Assembly: GCA_027065045.1 (NCBI GenBank)
Contig: JAMOOX010000093.1
Location: forward strand, 1 to 38,159
Direction: 5' to 3'
Source of the DNA: Campylobacteraceae bacterium
Lineage (GTDB): Bacteria; Campylobacterota; Campylobacteria; Campylobacterales; Sulfurovaceae
Length of the DNA: 38,159 nucleotides
The position numbers were made by a program, and so were the translations under genes. This document shows, one piece after another, positions 12,512 through 26,414 of the stretch. The notes under the pieces are model-generated. The model did no database searches. It was not told where the DNA came from and saw only the letters and a list, made by a program, of their open reading frames with translations. Every line of letters begins with the position of its first letter. Within the stretch, counting starts at the first letter, position 1.

Positions 12512-14968
12512 TTACCCCTTTTTAATTGTTACTGTTTTATATCTATCTTTACCAAAAATAGAGTAGATATTTTGATGACTTTTAAAATCAGGAACTAAAA
12601 CTATATCTCCATCTATTCTATCATCAACCACAACTTTTAATTTTAGAGTTGTATCTTTATCAAATTCAACTTCAACCTCTTCTTCAAGTGTTTGAGCTTT
12701 TGATGGACTTACATAAAGAGCAAACTCTTCATTGATTTGATGAGATTTATCTGTAAAATCATTAAATTGTCGTTGAGGATTACATCTATAAGCAATCTCT
12801 CCTTCTAATACAATACTATCATTAAACTCTACTACACTAACAGCTTGTTTTTCAACAGAGATATTATCTATAATATAACCTCTATTCTCTTTACCTGTAT
12901 TTGTATAACCATTTGGTAAATCATCAAATTCAATATCTTTAAATCCATCAAAACGAGCTAACTTAGGAGTGAAATCAATCGTCTCATCTAATCCTATATC
13001 AAACTCATTTAAAATATCATTAAGCTCGTAACCTTTATACTCCAAAGCAGGATTTGTTGGTACTACAACTTTATTCATAGTTACAAATGTACCCTCTTGT
13101 TGGTTAAGTGCAGGAATATCTAATTTACTAAATCCTCTAGCACCTAATCTAAAGTGTCCATGTTCGTTATATCCTACAATATATCCACTCTCTTCTTCAT
13201 CAAGGTTACATATCATAGCCACACCTAATGAGTTTGTTCTTGGTGGTATCATTACTAGATTCATATCACAAACATCTTCAATCAAGGCTACAAGTCTTGA
13301 AAGGTTTCTAGCACGAGGGTGGAAGTATAAATCTTCACCAATGATAAGGCTAAAGTTCTCTTTTTTCTTCATCATTTTTTCAAAAGTTTCAGCAAAATTA
13401 TCACTACCACCTAAGATAGATACAAGTCCATTCTCATCAACCTCTACCTCTTTATCTACCATCTTAGGTACTTTTTTAGTAACCTCTTTTGATTCACCAG
13501 TCTCTTTATCTACCACTGTTGAAGTTACACTCTCCATAACTTTTTCTTTGATAGTTTTTTTAACTGTTTTATGAAATGATGCTAAATAATCTTTAGTTTG
13601 AACTGGTAATTTATCTTTATCTCCAAATAGGTCAAGAATTAGATATAAAACTGCCTCTTCTTGCCCTACTTTATGATTAAACACTTCTACACTTTTACCA
13701 AATGTTGGCACTAGCATATCACCTACTGGGTGGAAATATAATCCTGCACCTTTGTTCATTTTTTGAACATTATTAAAAGCATATCTAGCATTTGGATTAT
13801 CATTTCTTAGTGATGCCCCAACAGATATTACAAAATCACTCTTCATAACTTCTCTAAAATCACTTCCATATAGAGATGACCCACTAGCTTTTGAGTAACT
13901 ATCTAAGAAATCTTTAAATGCTTTTGCATCGTGATTGATTAATTTAACTCCTAGTTTCTCTTTTAGAAGTTGAAGCATAAATGCCTCTTCATTTGTAATA
14001 GCAGAGTTAAATTTAATAGTATCAGCTTTTTTAAATGCGTTTATAGCTTGTTCAAATGCCTCTACATCTTTGCCCTCTACATCATTTTGGAAATCATAAC
14101 CAAATCTACCTGCACCACATAGTGATACAAAGTTCCACTCATTTGTTACTCTATAAATCTTCTCATCAGGATTTGCAATACTTGTATGCTTTTTCTCATA
14201 ATAGATTTGACAACCACTACTACAATGTGCACAAGTAGCAGGGACTCTCTCTAACTCCCAAGCATTAGATGAATATACAAAATCTCTACTTACTAACGCA
14301 CCAACAGGACAAACTGCTGTACATTCACCACAATCACTACAATTTGTATGTTCTGTCCCATTACTAGGAACAATTATAGATTTTTGTAGCTTATTCCACA
14401 TAGCATAAGCATCTTTTGGCATACTATCTTTTGCCTCTTTAGATAGTTTTTCACCACCTCTAGCACCTGTTTTGATAGCCGCATCACCTATCATATCTTT
14501 ACAAACTGTTGTACATCTCTCACATACAATACATAAACCTGCATCATAGTGAAGTACGCTACTCCAGTTAGTATTTTCTCTTTTGGTATCAGGGATTGAG
14601 TAGCTTTGAGAATCTACACCAATTTCAAGTGTATAATTTTGCAATTCACACTCTCCACTCTTATCACAAACACCACATTGAAGAGGATGATTTACATCAT
14701 ACACTTCCATAATAGCTCGTCTCTCTTTGAGAATATTAGGAGTACTTACTGTTACTTCCATACCCTCTTTTACTTTGGCATTACAAGCATAAACTTGCTT
14801 TCCATCAGCCTCAACAAGACATATACGACAAGCTAATGTCGGAGAACATCTTGTAAGATAACAGATAGCAGGGATAAATACATCATTTGCACGAGCAGCA
14901 TTTAATATATATTCACCCTCTTGAGTCTTATACTCTCTACCATCAATTTTTATTGTAATTTCGCTCAT
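12512..14968 (-). CDS. nuoG: NuoG paralogue, 818 aa, with a two-cluster ferredoxin-like segment
   Basis: An iron-sulfur subunit of the complex I peripheral arm. The ligand sets visible are [2Fe-2S] N1b Cys36, Cys47, Cys50, Cys62; the His-Cys3 N5 site His94, Cys98, Cys101, Cys107; then two complete ferredoxin-type motifs, Cys146-x2-Cys149-x2-Cys152-x3-Cys156 and Cys210-x2-Cys213-x2-Cys216-x3-Cys220-Pro; then an N7-type set Cys246, Cys249, Cys253, Cys284. Canonical NuoG keeps only one cluster (N4) in the middle segment, so this copy looks closer there to hydrogenase/formate dehydrogenase electron-transfer subunits. The C-terminal molybdopterin-oxidoreductase-like part is long, with a charged insert (about 460-510, many Lys/Glu/Val). 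It lies 11 nt after the 742-aa paralogue. Confidence 0.9.
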   Translation of the reverse strand: MSEITIKIDGREYKTQEGEYILNAARANDVFIPAICYLTRCSPTLACRICLVEADGKQVYACNAKVKEGMEVTVSTPNILKERRAIMEVYDVNHPLQCGVCDKSGECELQNYTLEIGVDSQSYSIPDTKRENTNWSSVLHYDAGLCIVCERCTTVCKDMIGDAAIKTGARGGEKLSKEAKDSMPKDAYAMWNKLQKSIIVPSNGTEHTNCSDCGECTAVCPVGALVSRDFVYSSNAWELERVPATCAHCSSGCQIYYEKKHTSIANPDEKIYRVTNEWNFVSLCGAGRFGYDFQNDVEGKDVEAFEQAINAFKKADTIKFNSAITNEEAFMLQLLKEKLGVKLINHDAKAFKDFLDSYSKASGSSLYGSDFREVMKSDFVISVGASLRNDNPNARYAFNNVQKMNKGAGLYFHPVGDMLVPTFGKSVEVFNHKVGQEEAVLYLILDLFGDKDKLPVQTKDYLASFHKTVKKTIKEKVMESVTSTVVDKETGESKEVTKKVPKMVDKEVEVDENGLVSILGGSDNFAETFEKMMKKKENFSLIIGEDLYFHPRARNLSRLVALIEDVCDMNLVMIPPRTNSLGVAMICNLDEEESGYIVGYNEHGHFRLGARGFSKLDIPALNQQEGTFVTMNKVVVPTNPALEYKGYELNDILNEFDIGLDETIDFTPKLARFDGFKDIEFDDLPNGYTNTGKENRGYIIDNISVEKQAVSVVEFNDSIVLEGEIAYRCNPQRQFNDFTDKSHQINEEFALYVSPSKAQTLEEEVEVEFDKDTTLKLKVVVDDRIDGDIVLVPDFKSHQNIYSIFGKDRYKTVTIKKG

Positions 14969-14979
14969 ATTTTAATCAC

Positions 14980-17208
14980 CTACACTTTTTCTATTTCTAA
15001 ACGAATATATCTATAAGAGGATAGCAAAGCTTCACTTAAGCCTCTATCATAGGTTGGGTTAAGTGCTATAATTCCTTTGAGAGATGTATCAATCTTAAAC
15101 ACTCTTTGGAACTTCACATCACCTATAGTGAAATTAACCATATCACCATCATTAAGCTTAGATACCTGCCCAAACTGCTTTGAACCTACTAAATAAGCAT
15201 CTGATTTTAATAATTTACTCTTATTTGTAAATTGAGATGTATGTTCTGCTGGATTACAGTTATAGATAACTGCACCATCAATCCCATCACTCTCAAATGG
15301 CTCTTCTATATTTTCATCAATCTCAACATCTACACTATCTAATAGATAACCTCTAAACTCATTACCACTATTATCAAAATAATCTTCTAAATCATCAAAT
15401 TCTATCTCTTTAAATCCATTAGAAACTGGTAATATTTGAGTATAATCAATAGTATATTTTACATTTAAACCCAACTCATTAGATATATCATTAAGAGTAT
15501 ATCCACCATAAGGAAGTACAACATTTAAAGGCACTACTCGTTTATTAAATCCAACTAAAGTTCCCTCTTGTTGATTTAGTGATGGCAAATCTAAATCACC
15601 CTCACCCATAGCAGAGAGAGTAAAATCACCTTTGGCATTAATTCCAATACTCTTACCCTCTATCTTATCATCAAGCTCACATATCTGTGCAATTCCCATC
15701 GCATTACCCGTTGGAGGCACAACTACTACACTAAAATCACTATATTTATCAATTAATCCTACCATCTTAGCTATATTTTTAGCTCGTGGGTGAGAGTATA
15801 AATCAGCACCAACTACAAGTGATAATCCATTTTTATTGATGAGTGATTTTGACAGAGCTTCAAGTTCTTCTTCTGATACATTTGATTCTGCACTAAGATT
15901 ACCTATATCAAAACTTTTGATTAAAGCTGTGATATTATCAGGTAACTTTTTATCTCTAAGTAGTGTATCTACAAGAAGTGCTAATACCATCTCTTCGCTA
16001 CTTGGTTCATACTTAATAAACTGTGTAACAATATTAGATATATTTTTATCCTCTATTGGGTGCATATATATCACTCTTGAACGATTATGCTTACTAGCTG
16101 TATTAATTGCATATTTGATAATAGGTGCATCATCATTAATTCTACTACCTACTACTAATACTGCTCTTGAACTTTTAATCTCATCAACACTACCACTAAA
16201 TAGGCTTTTACCTGTAATAGAAGAGTATGAAGCGATAAAGTCTTGATATGCTTTAGCTTGTGGAGATATTAGTTTATAACCATTTTTCTCTTTTAATTTT
16301 TGAAGGATTAATGCCTCTTCATTTGAAATTTCATTTGAAAAAATTATACTTTTAGCATTTTTAAATGCTTCAACTGCACCATTAAATGCACCTATATCTT
16401 TAGTAACGCCTCTATTTTGAAAATCAAATCCATATCTTGATGATGGACAAAGAGTAGAAAATTCAGCATGGTTTGATACACGATAAATCTCATCATCTTT
16501 GACTTCATAAATTACATCATGCCCACCACCACAGTGAGGACAAGATGATGGGATTTGTTTAAGTTCCCACGCATTTGCACTATATTTAAAGTTTGTATCA
16601 ACTAATGCACCCACAGGACAAACGGCAGCTGCTTCACCTAGTGATTTATAATTTTTATCTTGCTTGACATTAATAATAGTAGAGTTATATCCACCAAATT
16701 TTACTTGAAGTGCTTCATCTCCTGTAATTTCAGTAGAGACTTTGACACATCTTTCACACATAATACACAAAGCAGGGTCATAAGATACACTTCCCCACTT
16801 TTGCACTGGTCTATAAATATCTTTTGTTGTGAAGTTTTGGTTGGTTAAACCATACTCCATAGTCTTATTTTGAAGCTCACACTCTCCACTCTTATCACAT
16901 ACACCACACTCTAAAGGGTGATTTACATTATAGAGTTTCATAATGTTTGTTCGTTCTTTGTGAAGTTGTTCATTTTGAGTATTAATTACAGCACCATCAG
17001 TTGCTTTCTCTTGACAAGATAAAATTAATCCATCAACGCCCTCAACAGCAACTACACACATTCTACAAGATGCGATAGGTAGAGTTTTTGTAAGATAACA
17101 CATAGTTGGAATATATACTCCATTTGCTCTTGCTACCTCTAATATACTCTTACCATATTCACTAACACACTCTTTACCATCAATAGTAACTTTAATAGTT
17201 TTGCCCAT
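14980..17208 (-). CDS. nuoG: NuoG paralogue, 742 aa, with an altered N7 site
   Basis: The second NuoG-type subunit, promoter-proximal of the pair. Ligand sets are N1b Cys37, Cys48, Cys51, Cys65; N5 His97, Cys101, Cys104, Cys110; a single N4 cluster Cys148, Cys151, Cys154 with Cys197 (CPVGAL); and an N7-like site Cys223, Cys226, His230, Cys254 in which the third cysteine is replaced by histidine (CPHCGGGH). The C-terminal region is the inactive molybdopterin-oxidoreductase-like fold. It starts after a 1-nt gap from the FAD subunit and is followed by the 818-aa paralogue. The pair probably arose by an old duplication, since N1b/N5 regions match well but the rest has diverged. Confidence 0.9.
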   Translation of the reverse strand: MGKTIKVTIDGKECVSEYGKSILEVARANGVYIPTMCYLTKTLPIASCRMCVVAVEGVDGLILSCQEKATDGAVINTQNEQLHKERTNIMKLYNVNHPLECGVCDKSGECELQNKTMEYGLTNQNFTTKDIYRPVQKWGSVSYDPALCIMCERCVKVSTEITGDEALQVKFGGYNSTIINVKQDKNYKSLGEAAAVCPVGALVDTNFKYSANAWELKQIPSSCPHCGGGHDVIYEVKDDEIYRVSNHAEFSTLCPSSRYGFDFQNRGVTKDIGAFNGAVEAFKNAKSIIFSNEISNEEALILQKLKEKNGYKLISPQAKAYQDFIASYSSITGKSLFSGSVDEIKSSRAVLVVGSRINDDAPIIKYAINTASKHNRSRVIYMHPIEDKNISNIVTQFIKYEPSSEEMVLALLVDTLLRDKKLPDNITALIKSFDIGNLSAESNVSEEELEALSKSLINKNGLSLVVGADLYSHPRAKNIAKMVGLIDKYSDFSVVVVPPTGNAMGIAQICELDDKIEGKSIGINAKGDFTLSAMGEGDLDLPSLNQQEGTLVGFNKRVVPLNVVLPYGGYTLNDISNELGLNVKYTIDYTQILPVSNGFKEIEFDDLEDYFDNSGNEFRGYLLDSVDVEIDENIEEPFESDGIDGAVIYNCNPAEHTSQFTNKSKLLKSDAYLVGSKQFGQVSKLNDGDMVNFTIGDVKFQRVFKIDTSLKGIIALNPTYDRGLSEALLSSYRYIRLEIEKV

Positions 17209-23298: not shown

Positions 23299-23360
23299 GT
23301 AAATTTTATATAATATTTAAAGATATTCTGTGTGGACATCCCTAGTAAATTATTATCTTA

Positions 23361-23394
23361 TTTCTAAAATTTAATATTAAAATTGTTTTAGAAA
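23361..23394. terminator. Hairpin downstream of cysQ, just outside the left inverted repeat
   Basis: TTTCTAAAA (23361-23369) pairs perfectly with TTTTAGAAA (23386-23394) around a 16-nt AT loop. It could terminate cysQ transcription, but there is no T-run after it and the stem is AT-rich. It ends 6 nt before the 34-bp inverted repeat begins. Confidence 0.3.
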
Positions 23395-23399
23395 GTTAT

Positions 23400-23433
23400 A
23401 AAAGTGGAAATTTAATACACGGTACTTAAATTG
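23400..23433 (+). repeat. Left copy of a 34-bp inverted repeat bounding a 3-kb accessory block
   Basis: Key blocks are AAAGTGGAAATT at the outer side and ACACGGTACTTAAATTG at the inner side. The reverse complement of this copy matches 26381-26414 at 33 of 34 positions (one A/G difference). It lies 11 nt beyond the stop of the AAA-ATPase/nuclease gene. I do not recognise the repeat as a known insertion sequence end, and no target duplication is evident outside it. Confidence 0.85.
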
Positions 23434-23444
23434 AGAGAAGAGGA

Positions 23445-25001
23445 TTAGACTATCTTCTCCCACTCAAATTTGCAGATATTTCTATCTTTTTTAGAAAATT
23501 CTATACCAATGATAACTATCTCTTCTGCCTTGTTTAGATACTTTTCGTGATACTTTTTCTCTTTTATCTGCTCTAAAGCTTTGCCATTTCTATTCTTATT
23601 TTCTACTACTTTAAACTCAATAATATAGACTTGGCTCATATCAGGTGTGGCGATAGTTAAATCTATTCTTCCTAAATTAGTTGTATCTTCGGCTATAAAC
23701 TCAATCCCTAAACCTGATAGGTAACTGTAAATGATGTTCGCATAGTAGCCCTCATAATGGTGCATATCATTTTTTGTATAACTATTATAAGGAAGAGTAG
23801 CAAAAACTTGATAGATGGCTTTTTCAAACTGTTTCATATCTTTAAATTCAATTGCATCAAATATAGGATTTTTTTGTAAAATATTATTGGTCAAAAGATA
23901 GCGATAAATTCGTTCATTAAGGGCAGTTCTTACTTCAAGATTGGGGTAACTTAACTTAAATATTCGTTGGTTAAATCGTGTTCTAACCTCTTGAATAGTC
24001 AAGTAACCTGTTTGAAATAATAGTGTTTCTATCTTAATATCATCTACATCAAAACTGCTTATATCAGTCTCACTCATATAGAGATTTTCTAAATTTGGTA
24101 GATAATACCTCTGCTCTTTTAAAAGTTGAATTAAAAAACTTGGGCTACCTGTCTCAAACCAATAGTGACTATAGATTTTTCCCTTAGAGAAAAAGAGTAA
24201 AATATCAAAAGGATTATAAACTCCCTCTCCCAAGAAGTTATAACCGTTATACCATTTTTTGAGTTCATCTAAATCAACACCATCTAATCGTTCATTAAAT
24301 GACTCTTTTACATCATTATGTGTATAACCACAAATGGTAGCATATCCTTCATCTAAAGATATATCTTCTAAATTATTCAATCCACTAAATAGGCTTACTT
24401 TTGAGAACTTACTAACACCTGTTAACATAGCAAACTTTAAATATTGGTCACTCTCTTTAATCACAGAGTAGATATTTTTGAGTCTATCACGAACCTCTTT
24501 AGATAACTCTTTGTCTGTAATATTATCTAAAATAGGTTTGTCATACTCATCTACCAAAACAACAACTTTTTGATTGTATTTTTCATAAGCAGTACGAATG
24601 AGTTCGCTCAAACATTTTTTATGTTTACTATTATCTGTACAATCTAGTTTTAATCTTCTCTCATTGTTCTCTATAAGCTCTTGAATAGTATCATCAATAT
24701 CAGTAATACTTTTCACTACCCCTGCACCAAAACTGATTTTAATCACTGGATAAGTGGTTTTCCAATCCCACTTATTATAAATATAAAGTCCCTCAAATAA
24801 TTCTTTTTTACCCTCAAATATATCTTTTAGGGTATCTAAAAAGAGAGACTTTCCAAAACGGCGAGGGCGAGAAAGAAAAAAATATCCCCCCTCTTTAGTT
24901 ATAAGATTATATGCCAAATCTGTTTTATCTATATATATATAATTCTCTTTTTTATCTCTTATTTTTTGGAATGTTTGGATTCCTATTGGTAGGTTTTTCA
25001 T
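23445..25001 (-). CDS. AAA-ATPase-like / PD-(D/E)XK nuclease family protein
   Basis: The 518-aa protein has the two-part plan of the AAA-ATPase-like (PF09820-type) plus PDDEXK_9 family. The N-terminal half starts LPIGIQTFQKIR, has YIDKT (23-27), a Walker A-like RPRRFGKS (45-52) and Walker B VVVLVDEYD (147-154). The C-terminal half carries the nuclease-like set Asp447, Glu462 and Lys464 (ID...EFK). The family is abundant and often multicopy in anaerobes and Campylobacterota. Its role is not established; mobile-element or defence functions are suspected. It begins 1 nt after the truncated DUF262 frame, implying it or a rearrangement cut that gene. It lies in the inverted-repeat-bounded block. 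Confidence 0.8.
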   Translation of the reverse strand: MKNLPIGIQTFQKIRDKKENYIYIDKTDLAYNLITKEGGYFFLSRPRRFGKSLFLDTLKDIFEGKKELFEGLYIYNKWDWKTTYPVIKISFGAGVVKSITDIDDTIQELIENNERRLKLDCTDNSKHKKCLSELIRTAYEKYNQKVVVLVDEYDKPILDNITDKELSKEVRDRLKNIYSVIKESDQYLKFAMLTGVSKFSKVSLFSGLNNLEDISLDEGYATICGYTHNDVKESFNERLDGVDLDELKKWYNGYNFLGEGVYNPFDILLFFSKGKIYSHYWFETGSPSFLIQLLKEQRYYLPNLENLYMSETDISSFDVDDIKIETLLFQTGYLTIQEVRTRFNQRIFKLSYPNLEVRTALNERIYRYLLTNNILQKNPIFDAIEFKDMKQFEKAIYQVFATLPYNSYTKNDMHHYEGYYANIIYSYLSGLGIEFIAEDTTNLGRIDLTIATPDMSQVYIIEFKVVENKNRNGKALEQIKEKKYHEKYLNKAEEIVIIGIEFSKKDRNICKFEWEKIV

Positions 25002-25002
25002 A

Positions 25003-26196
25003 TTATTTTCTTTTATTTAAATTTCTTTTATTTTCAGTTAATATTTTTTCAAATGCGTCTATAATGTTGATATTGGTTATTTTCTTTTTCTTTAAAATAT
25101 TAATCTCTTTTTTATAAGAAAACGCATTATAAAAATGTCTTAAAAATCTCTCTTGTTTTTTTGCATCATTCACATAAGTTACCAATTTATTCCATATATC
25201 TATGGAACTTTCTATAGACTTATCATCTAATTTTGAAAAAATAATATTTTTAATTAAATCCATTGGAGTTAACTCTTGTCCTCTATTATTTAAGGTTTCA
25301 AACAACCTATTTGCTGAGTTATAATCAGATACTCTTGATTAAATACGCCATATTCGCAAGAATAAGGTCATGTATAAGGTTCAAGCTACCTTATTATTTT
25401 TTGTTTAAAAAAGTTTAATTAACTACTACATAAGCTTGGATATCGCTTGTATAGTATATAAAAACTCATATGTAAAATATTATTTAAACATTAATATTTT
25501 ATAACTTTATATATTTTATTTTGTTTAAAACATATAATCCAATAGTAAAATAAGCTATTTAAACTATAGAATATTGCTTATATTGCTTTAAATTCCAACT
25601 GATATTTCAATTAAAACAGTTAGTTATATTTAATTTTTCATAAAAATTCATTAATTCATTAAGTTTAAAAGATTGAAATCGTTTATAAAAATATTCATAT
25701 GATTTATTAATATTTGACTCTTGTTCAAGTTTCTTATCTTGACTTTTATTTTGCAATAAACCAACTTCTTGAAGTAAAGCTATATAATTTTGATAGTCAT
25801 TCTTTTGATGAGAGGGATGGAGTCGAGGAATTTCTTCTTCAATAACAACAAAATCACTGATATAAGTACACATTCTATAAAATTTGTTCTTTATTTCATT
25901 TGGAATATTTTCCATTTCACTAGTAATTTTAGAAAGAGCAATTAAAGCTAAAGAAATAGTTGTTAATCTTTGTTGACCATCTACCACATCAATATAGTCA
26001 GAATCTTTATCATTAATAGTAATAATAGAACCTAAAAAATGACTTTCTCCATTTACTGTTTCAGAGTCTTGTATATCATTTATAAAAAACTCCCAATTTT
26101 TTTTATCCCACACATATTCTCTCTGATATGGTGGTATCTTATATACAGTTGTCTTATCAGTAGCATTTTATTTATTTTTTTGTTATTAGCTTCCAT
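25003..26196 (-). pseudogene. Broken DUF262 (GmrSD-type restriction) gene in three pieces
   Basis: The gene starts at an ATG at 26194-26196 (MEANNKK). It loses frame near 26165-26170 and continues in the frame open from 26167 to 25607. That frame holds KIPPYQREYVWDKKNWE and the DGQQRLTT motif (DVVDGQQRLTTISL), hallmarks of DUF262. It then stops. About 265 bp of AT-rich foreign-looking sequence follows. The family continues at 25338 with RVSDYNSANRLFETLNNRG and TPMDLIKNIIF, and ends at 25003, before the expected C-terminal DUF1524/HNH part. DUF262-DUF1524 proteins include GmrSD-type nucleases against modified phage DNA. With a frameshift, an insert and a lost 3' end this copy should be dead. 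Confidence 0.8.
25342..25606. mobile_element. AT-rich insert of about 265 bp within the DUF262 pseudogene, possible non-autonomous element
   Basis: It splits the DUF262 reading frame between LNITNCF and RVSDYNSA. It has no coding capacity and no terminal inverted repeat. One end carries AATAAGGT paired with ACCTTATT (about 25359-25394 on the plus strand, with an inner repeat of AAGGT/ACCTT). The other end has AATAT/ATATT around AAGCA. Sub-terminal hairpins, no terminal repeats and an AT-rich TTTAA-like context at both edges would fit a relic of an IS200/IS605-type element, but this is inference. Edges are approximate. Confidence 0.35.
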
Positions 26197-26298
26197 TCTC
26201 TATTTCCATTTTTTAATTGAATTTTATTTTTTCAATATTATATCAAGATTTTTAATAGATAAAGGTATCCTTGAATTGTTTGTTTTTGATTATTTTAA

Positions 26299-26388
26299 CT
26301 TTATGGTCTAGTGCCAAAAGAGTATATCATGATAACAAAAGGTGGAGTAGCAGAAGAGTTTTTTATAAACTCAATCGCACCAATTTAA
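26299..26388 (+). pseudogene. C-terminal remnant of an unidentified protein ending in the right inverted repeat
   Basis: A 29-codon stretch reads LYGLVPKEYIMITKGG then VAEEFFINSIAPI and stops at TAA (26386-26388) inside the repeat. The composition looks protein-like, but there is a stop directly upstream and no start with a ribosome site. I do not recognise the family. The surrounding gap 26197-26553 otherwise holds AT-rich sequence, the right inverted repeat, a long hairpin and the tolC-like leader. Confidence 0.25.
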
Positions 26389-26414
26389 GTACCGTGTATT
26401 GAATTTCCACTTTT
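26381..26414 (-). repeat. Right copy of the 34-bp inverted repeat
   Basis: Reads CAATTTAAGTACCGTG at the inner end and AATTTCCACTTTT at the outer end, in inverted orientation to 23400-23433 with one mismatch (26401). It contains the TAA of the unidentified remnant. Together the two copies bound about 3,015 bp holding the AAA-ATPase/nuclease gene and the DUF262 pseudogene. Confidence 0.85.

Follow-up and report, generated by a model that had tools for sequence, protein, structure and literature searches.

A 3-kb block between cysQ and an efflux operon in a Campylobacteraceae bacterium is bounded by a long inverted repeat, which raises the question of whether the block is a mobile unit. The DNA analyzed was GCA_027065045.1, contig JAMOOX010000093.1, positions 1-38,159, and this whole stretch of 38,159 nucleotides is called the window here. 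An earlier note had suspected a defence unit moved as cargo in trans, a non-autonomous transposon or the trace of an inversion. Our results support none of the three. The arms of the repeat are very probably solo TIRs, left by two copies of a Y1 transposase element that landed near each other and then decayed, and the block is most likely not itself a mobile unit but ordinary DNA between two old insertions.

The inverted repeat and the genes between its arms

The left arm (AAAAGTGGAAATTTAATACACGGTACTTAAATTG) and the right arm (CAATTTAAGTACCGTGTATTGAATTTCCACTTTT) are complementary at 33 of 34 positions and form the strongest inverted repeat of the window (Table 1). Only ~2e-8 inverted pairs this good were expected in the window from its base composition, and extending the pairing past 34 bp brought no gain. 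The earlier note had thus placed the repeat correctly and had rightly judged it to be beyond chance. Its statement that the arms enclose no transposase also holds, as no transposase ORF was found inside the block.

Table 1. Features of the window at and between the arms of the inverted repeat.
Feature	Coordinates	Strand	Description
Left element remnant	23343..23433	+	~90 bp including the TIR; 3' end of transposase element
Left arm	23400..23433	+	3'-end TIR of a TIRYT (TIR-associated Y1 transposase) element; this sequence also ends ~870-bp elements in L053, L054 and L061; outer tip on the side of 23433, interior on the side of lower coordinates
AAA-ATPase_like (PF09820) + PDDEXK_9 (PF08011) gene	23445..25001	-	518 aa, intact
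Broken DUF262/GmrSD_N gene	25003..26113	-	Two pieces in different frames: N-terminal 25607-26113, middle 25003-25305
Second mobile-looking insertion	25332..25601	.	~270 bp, inside the DUF262 gene
Right arm	26381..26414	-	Solo TIR, same family as left arm; outer tip towards 26381

Both genes that had been read between the arms were recovered. The AAA-ATPase/PD-(D/E)XK gene was confirmed by its two domain matches, and the DUF262 gene is dead, as had been claimed, because its frames are broken and its C-terminal part is missing. PF09820 has 11 matches in this 2.06-Mb genome, the gene of the block included, and several of them are fragments or carry stops, in keeping with a gene-family expansion. 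A plasmid search with the block returned only distant matches to the AAA gene (Moraxella, Calditerrivibrio). Copies of the insertion inside the DUF262 gene were found on contig C17 of the same genome (96%) and in the relative G060 (97%), and its 64-bp ends (CTCTTGATTAAATACGCC...AAGGTTCAAGCTACCTTATT) are also present alone at a number of sites in the own genome, G060 and G056. In relatives, cysQ and tolC have other neighbours than at the window locus, and synteny is lost. Elsewhere in the window there are two pairs of diverged direct repeats (71-72%), 12852-13024 / 15323-15495 and 14596-14733 / 16827-16964, both upstream of respiratory-complex genes; they are presumably paralogous subunit genes.

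The transposase element and its repeats in relatives

Searching the genome and its relatives for the 34-bp sequence, as the earlier note had proposed, yielded a third copy in the own genome and four relatives with several copies. The third copy, 87% identical (C30:14549-14579), has a HigBA-like pair on one side and a CDP-glycerol-type transferase gene on the other, names that were read from translations without a family search. In a scan of 175 family genomes, 14 copies were found in G015, 13 in G055, 6 in G056 and 3 in G060; in the 170 other family genomes it was not found even with 3 mismatches allowed, and the reversed control gave zero. An exact 19-mer scan of genome contigs found 3 loci from two Campylobacterota assemblies and one match in Pseudohongiella, which has no element around it and is probably due to chance. 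In a Sulfurovaceae genome, a PIN-toxin/antitoxin-like gene pair directly adjoins the TIR (L051:502-1309, on the same contig as L058), so that toxin-antitoxin neighbours occur at the TIRs of both L051 and C30.

In G055 and G015, two repeats in (-)..(+) arrangement bound an element of ~870 bp with a single 265-aa ORF. The suspicion that the repeat is the end of a mobile element was therefore borne out, since it forms both ends of this element in relatives. The ORF codes for a Y1/HUH tyrosine transposase (Y1_Tnp, 2e-16), and its match to the NCBIfam model REP_Tyr_transpos reached 5e-20, yet remained below the curated cut-off. It carries the motifs NHYH at 58, WQ at 97 and YIEQNP at 118, and matches for a C-terminal HTH domain were weak (HTH_3, 0.14; Sigma70_r4, 0.15). 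The terminal part of the transposase gene contains the 3' TIR, which encodes ...SIHGT and the stop. A search of PDB sequences with the transposase was uninformative. G055 has two full copies, 99-100% identical and in different contexts, which indicates that the element moved recently there, and the same-genus genome G015 holds an 89% copy; more distant relatives of the transposase were found in 82 of the 175 genomes. An alignment of element copies also revealed internally deleted forms of ~350, ~250 and ~125 bp, which keep both ends and have lost the middle.

At many TIRs, the outside tip is followed by short tandem echoes of its own last bases, such as ACGGTACTTAAGTT-ACGGTACTTAAGTT; examples are L053:1926-1990, L054:785-842, L056:1885-1969, L057:453-519, L061:3590-3643 and L063:2198-2260. 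An exact repeat of at least 8 of the last 14 bases was found within the next 40 bp at 9 of 41 TIRs, as against 0.5% of shuffled flanks; the flanks of other copies also gave a high value (16%) because the same echoes are present there.

Polarity of the TIRs and origin of the block

Among all elements seen, complete copies were always arranged (-)..(+), with the interior between the TIRs. Every (-)..(+) neighbour pair was an element with an interior of 68-820 bp, and the (+)..(-) neighbour pairs, among them the pair of the window, were gaps of unrelated sequence. Given its (+)..(-) arrangement, the interiors of the elements at the window lie outside the 3-kb block; the arms point towards each other with their outer tips, and the 3 kb between them is most likely flanking DNA. 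The block as a transposon would require these tips on its outside, and the arms are instead reversed relative to all element pairs. The same geometry was found in G015 (L060:486-3836), where a (+)..(-) gap of 3.35 kb, with a complete miniature element on each side, contains antiporter and MFS transporter genes (names from translations). This polarity, which was not visible to the earlier note, decides the question of the block.

A remnant of the element is still recognizable beside the left arm. Its frame ends in ...KIVLESYKSGNLIHGT and the stop, compared with KIVLESYKSVNSIHGT and the stop at the C-terminus of the cognate transposase. The DNA of the remnant, TIR excluded, scored 50 against the element (mean of shuffles, 27.6; 0 of 500 shuffles reached 50), and its peptide scored 66 against the cognate C-terminus (maximum of shuffles, 49). 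Beyond the right TIR, no recognizable element sequence was detected, 228-382 of 500 shuffles being as good in comparisons with either element end, and no relative of a short peptide beside this TIR (VPKEYIMITKGGVAEEFFINSIAP / ETDALASVGI) was found among 175 genomes. The right flank no longer shows from which end of an element its copy came. The own assembly contains no intact transposase of the TIR family, and an intact copy could be unassembled since the assembly is fragmented (164 contigs).

The arrangement probably arose as follows. Between cysQ and the efflux operon, two copies of the ~870-bp TIRYT element would have inserted independently at sites ~3 kb from each other, and each would then have decayed, the left one to ~90 bp of transposase 3' end and TIR, the right one to its TIR only. 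The spot appears to be accessory and insertion-prone, the dead DUF262 gene there having itself been struck by another small element. Two of the three copies in the genome lie within 3 kb (P ~0.009 under random placement), and local clustering of TIRs was also observed in G055 and G060. Because the arms are nearly identical, 3 kb apart and drawn from three copies in the genome, the two may be less than fully independent; we rate both local clustering and a composite arrangement that was later lost as unlikely. A preference of TIRYT elements for insertion next to their own outer tips, with short tandem echoes of the TIR terminus left behind, would fit the echoes at 9 of 41 TIRs but seems rather unlikely to us. 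If it existed, the close pair of the window would reflect local targeting of insertion, which neither PMC3733652 nor PMC6006769 describes for this transposase class.

The small distance between two of only three copies would also suit a decayed composite transposon, in which two TIRYT copies moved the 3-kb cargo by their far (outer) ends, since lost. The genes of the block are of an accessory kind, and, as the left copy is the 3' end of an element, the right one could be a 5' end, which would give a direct orientation. This origin is nevertheless improbable: the intact far ends that should surround the cargo are absent on both sides, neither being present in the window; no TIRs were found beside the loci of AAA-gene homologues examined, save at the window's own locus, the closest homologues in other genomes (75-83%) included; and the geometry shared with G015 encloses ordinary genes there. 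The lack of arms at the AAA homologues also weighs on the reading of the earlier note, a non-autonomous unit mobilized in trans with both arms as its termini. The near-perfect inverted pair and the cognate transposases of relatives speak for such a unit, but its polarity would be the inverse of that in every observed element pair and the genome has no intact transposase, which makes it very improbable.

Two further explanations have a negligible probability. The arms might be gene-end or regulatory palindromes (terminators or REP hairpins) with no link to movement, in that the left arm codes for a C-terminus and some copies lie downstream of toxin-antitoxin genes. However, the arms as single-stranded DNA folded weakly or not at all (0 to -2.7 kcal/mol; z from -1.7 to +0.9), for which an identity as REP hairpins was rejected, no Rfam match was found for the repeat, and full, transposase-bearing elements share the arm. 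The alternating orientation along contigs and the toxin-antitoxin genes nearby would fit Xer/pdif-type modules or integron cassettes, with alternately oriented sites bounding swappable gene modules, but only the (+)..(-) gaps are diverse; these candidates were discarded when the (-)..(+) intervals turned out to be a single homologous transposase element. Thus, two independent insertions followed by decay remain the reading that we prefer, and a concrete element takes the place of the suspected defence cargo. Before sequence enclosed by inverted repeats is taken for cargo, the polarity of the TIRs must be established.

Comparison with known systems

Forms of ~125 bp in G015, which keep both TIRs and have no gene, resemble MITEs, whereas the window holds solo TIRs only and no intact miniature element. 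IS200/IS605 elements share the Y1 catalytic domain, and their published single-stranded transposition is likely a model for the present element, which, judging from its transposase family, would move as single-stranded DNA by HUH chemistry. They differ from it in that the protein here is longer, has YIEQNP and not the Y---Q motif, and is encoded between ends that are true TIRs. RAYT/REPtron systems and REPINs have a related transposase (REP_Tyr_transpos, Y1_Tnp) and short dispersed repeats in pairs, but the stable, GTAG-tagged palindromic hairpin beside the gene is lacking in the repeats described here.

The closest likeness is to the TIRtrons. Di Nocera et al. (2013; PMC3733652) gave the name TIRYT to Y1 transposase genes with long flanking TIRs and the name TIRtrons to the elements, reported a GGGGWSAS motif in some TIRs, and found TIR families single, as dimers and in groups. 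Most TIRYTs were assigned to subclass 2.1 by Quentin et al. (2018; PMC6006769), who described their prevalence in epsilonproteobacteria and a C-terminal helix-turn-helix, and whose table gives the class 2.1 motifs as NH[YF]H, W[EQ] and Y[IV]xxNP. The element of this study matches the TIRtron/TIRYT kind, subclass 2.1, with a transposase of the RAYT superfamily: a TIR pair encloses the Y1 HUH gene in L053, L054 and L061, one TIR overlaps the gene end, NHYH, WQ and YIEQNP agree with the class motifs, and the long TIRs, unrelated to GTAG-tagged REP hairpins, are dispersed singly, as dimers and in groups. The window, by contrast, holds remnants only, the left one a C-terminal piece of the gene. In sister elements of many distant relatives, the TIRs share the inner half (TTGAATATCCACTTT), have GGGTCAGGCG as the outer half and carry the GGGGWSAS-type motif as GGGTCAG/GGGGTCAG. 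In the present TIR type this motif is absent and the outer half is AAGTACCGTGTA instead; GGGGWSAS is not a defining feature of TIRtrons, since in PMC3733652 not all members need to carry it. This class of Y1 transposases has scarcely been studied, and it gains here a lineage-specific TIR type in which the outer half is swapped on a shared inner half; the young full-length and miniature copies in G055 and G015 are suited to testing its transposition mechanism.
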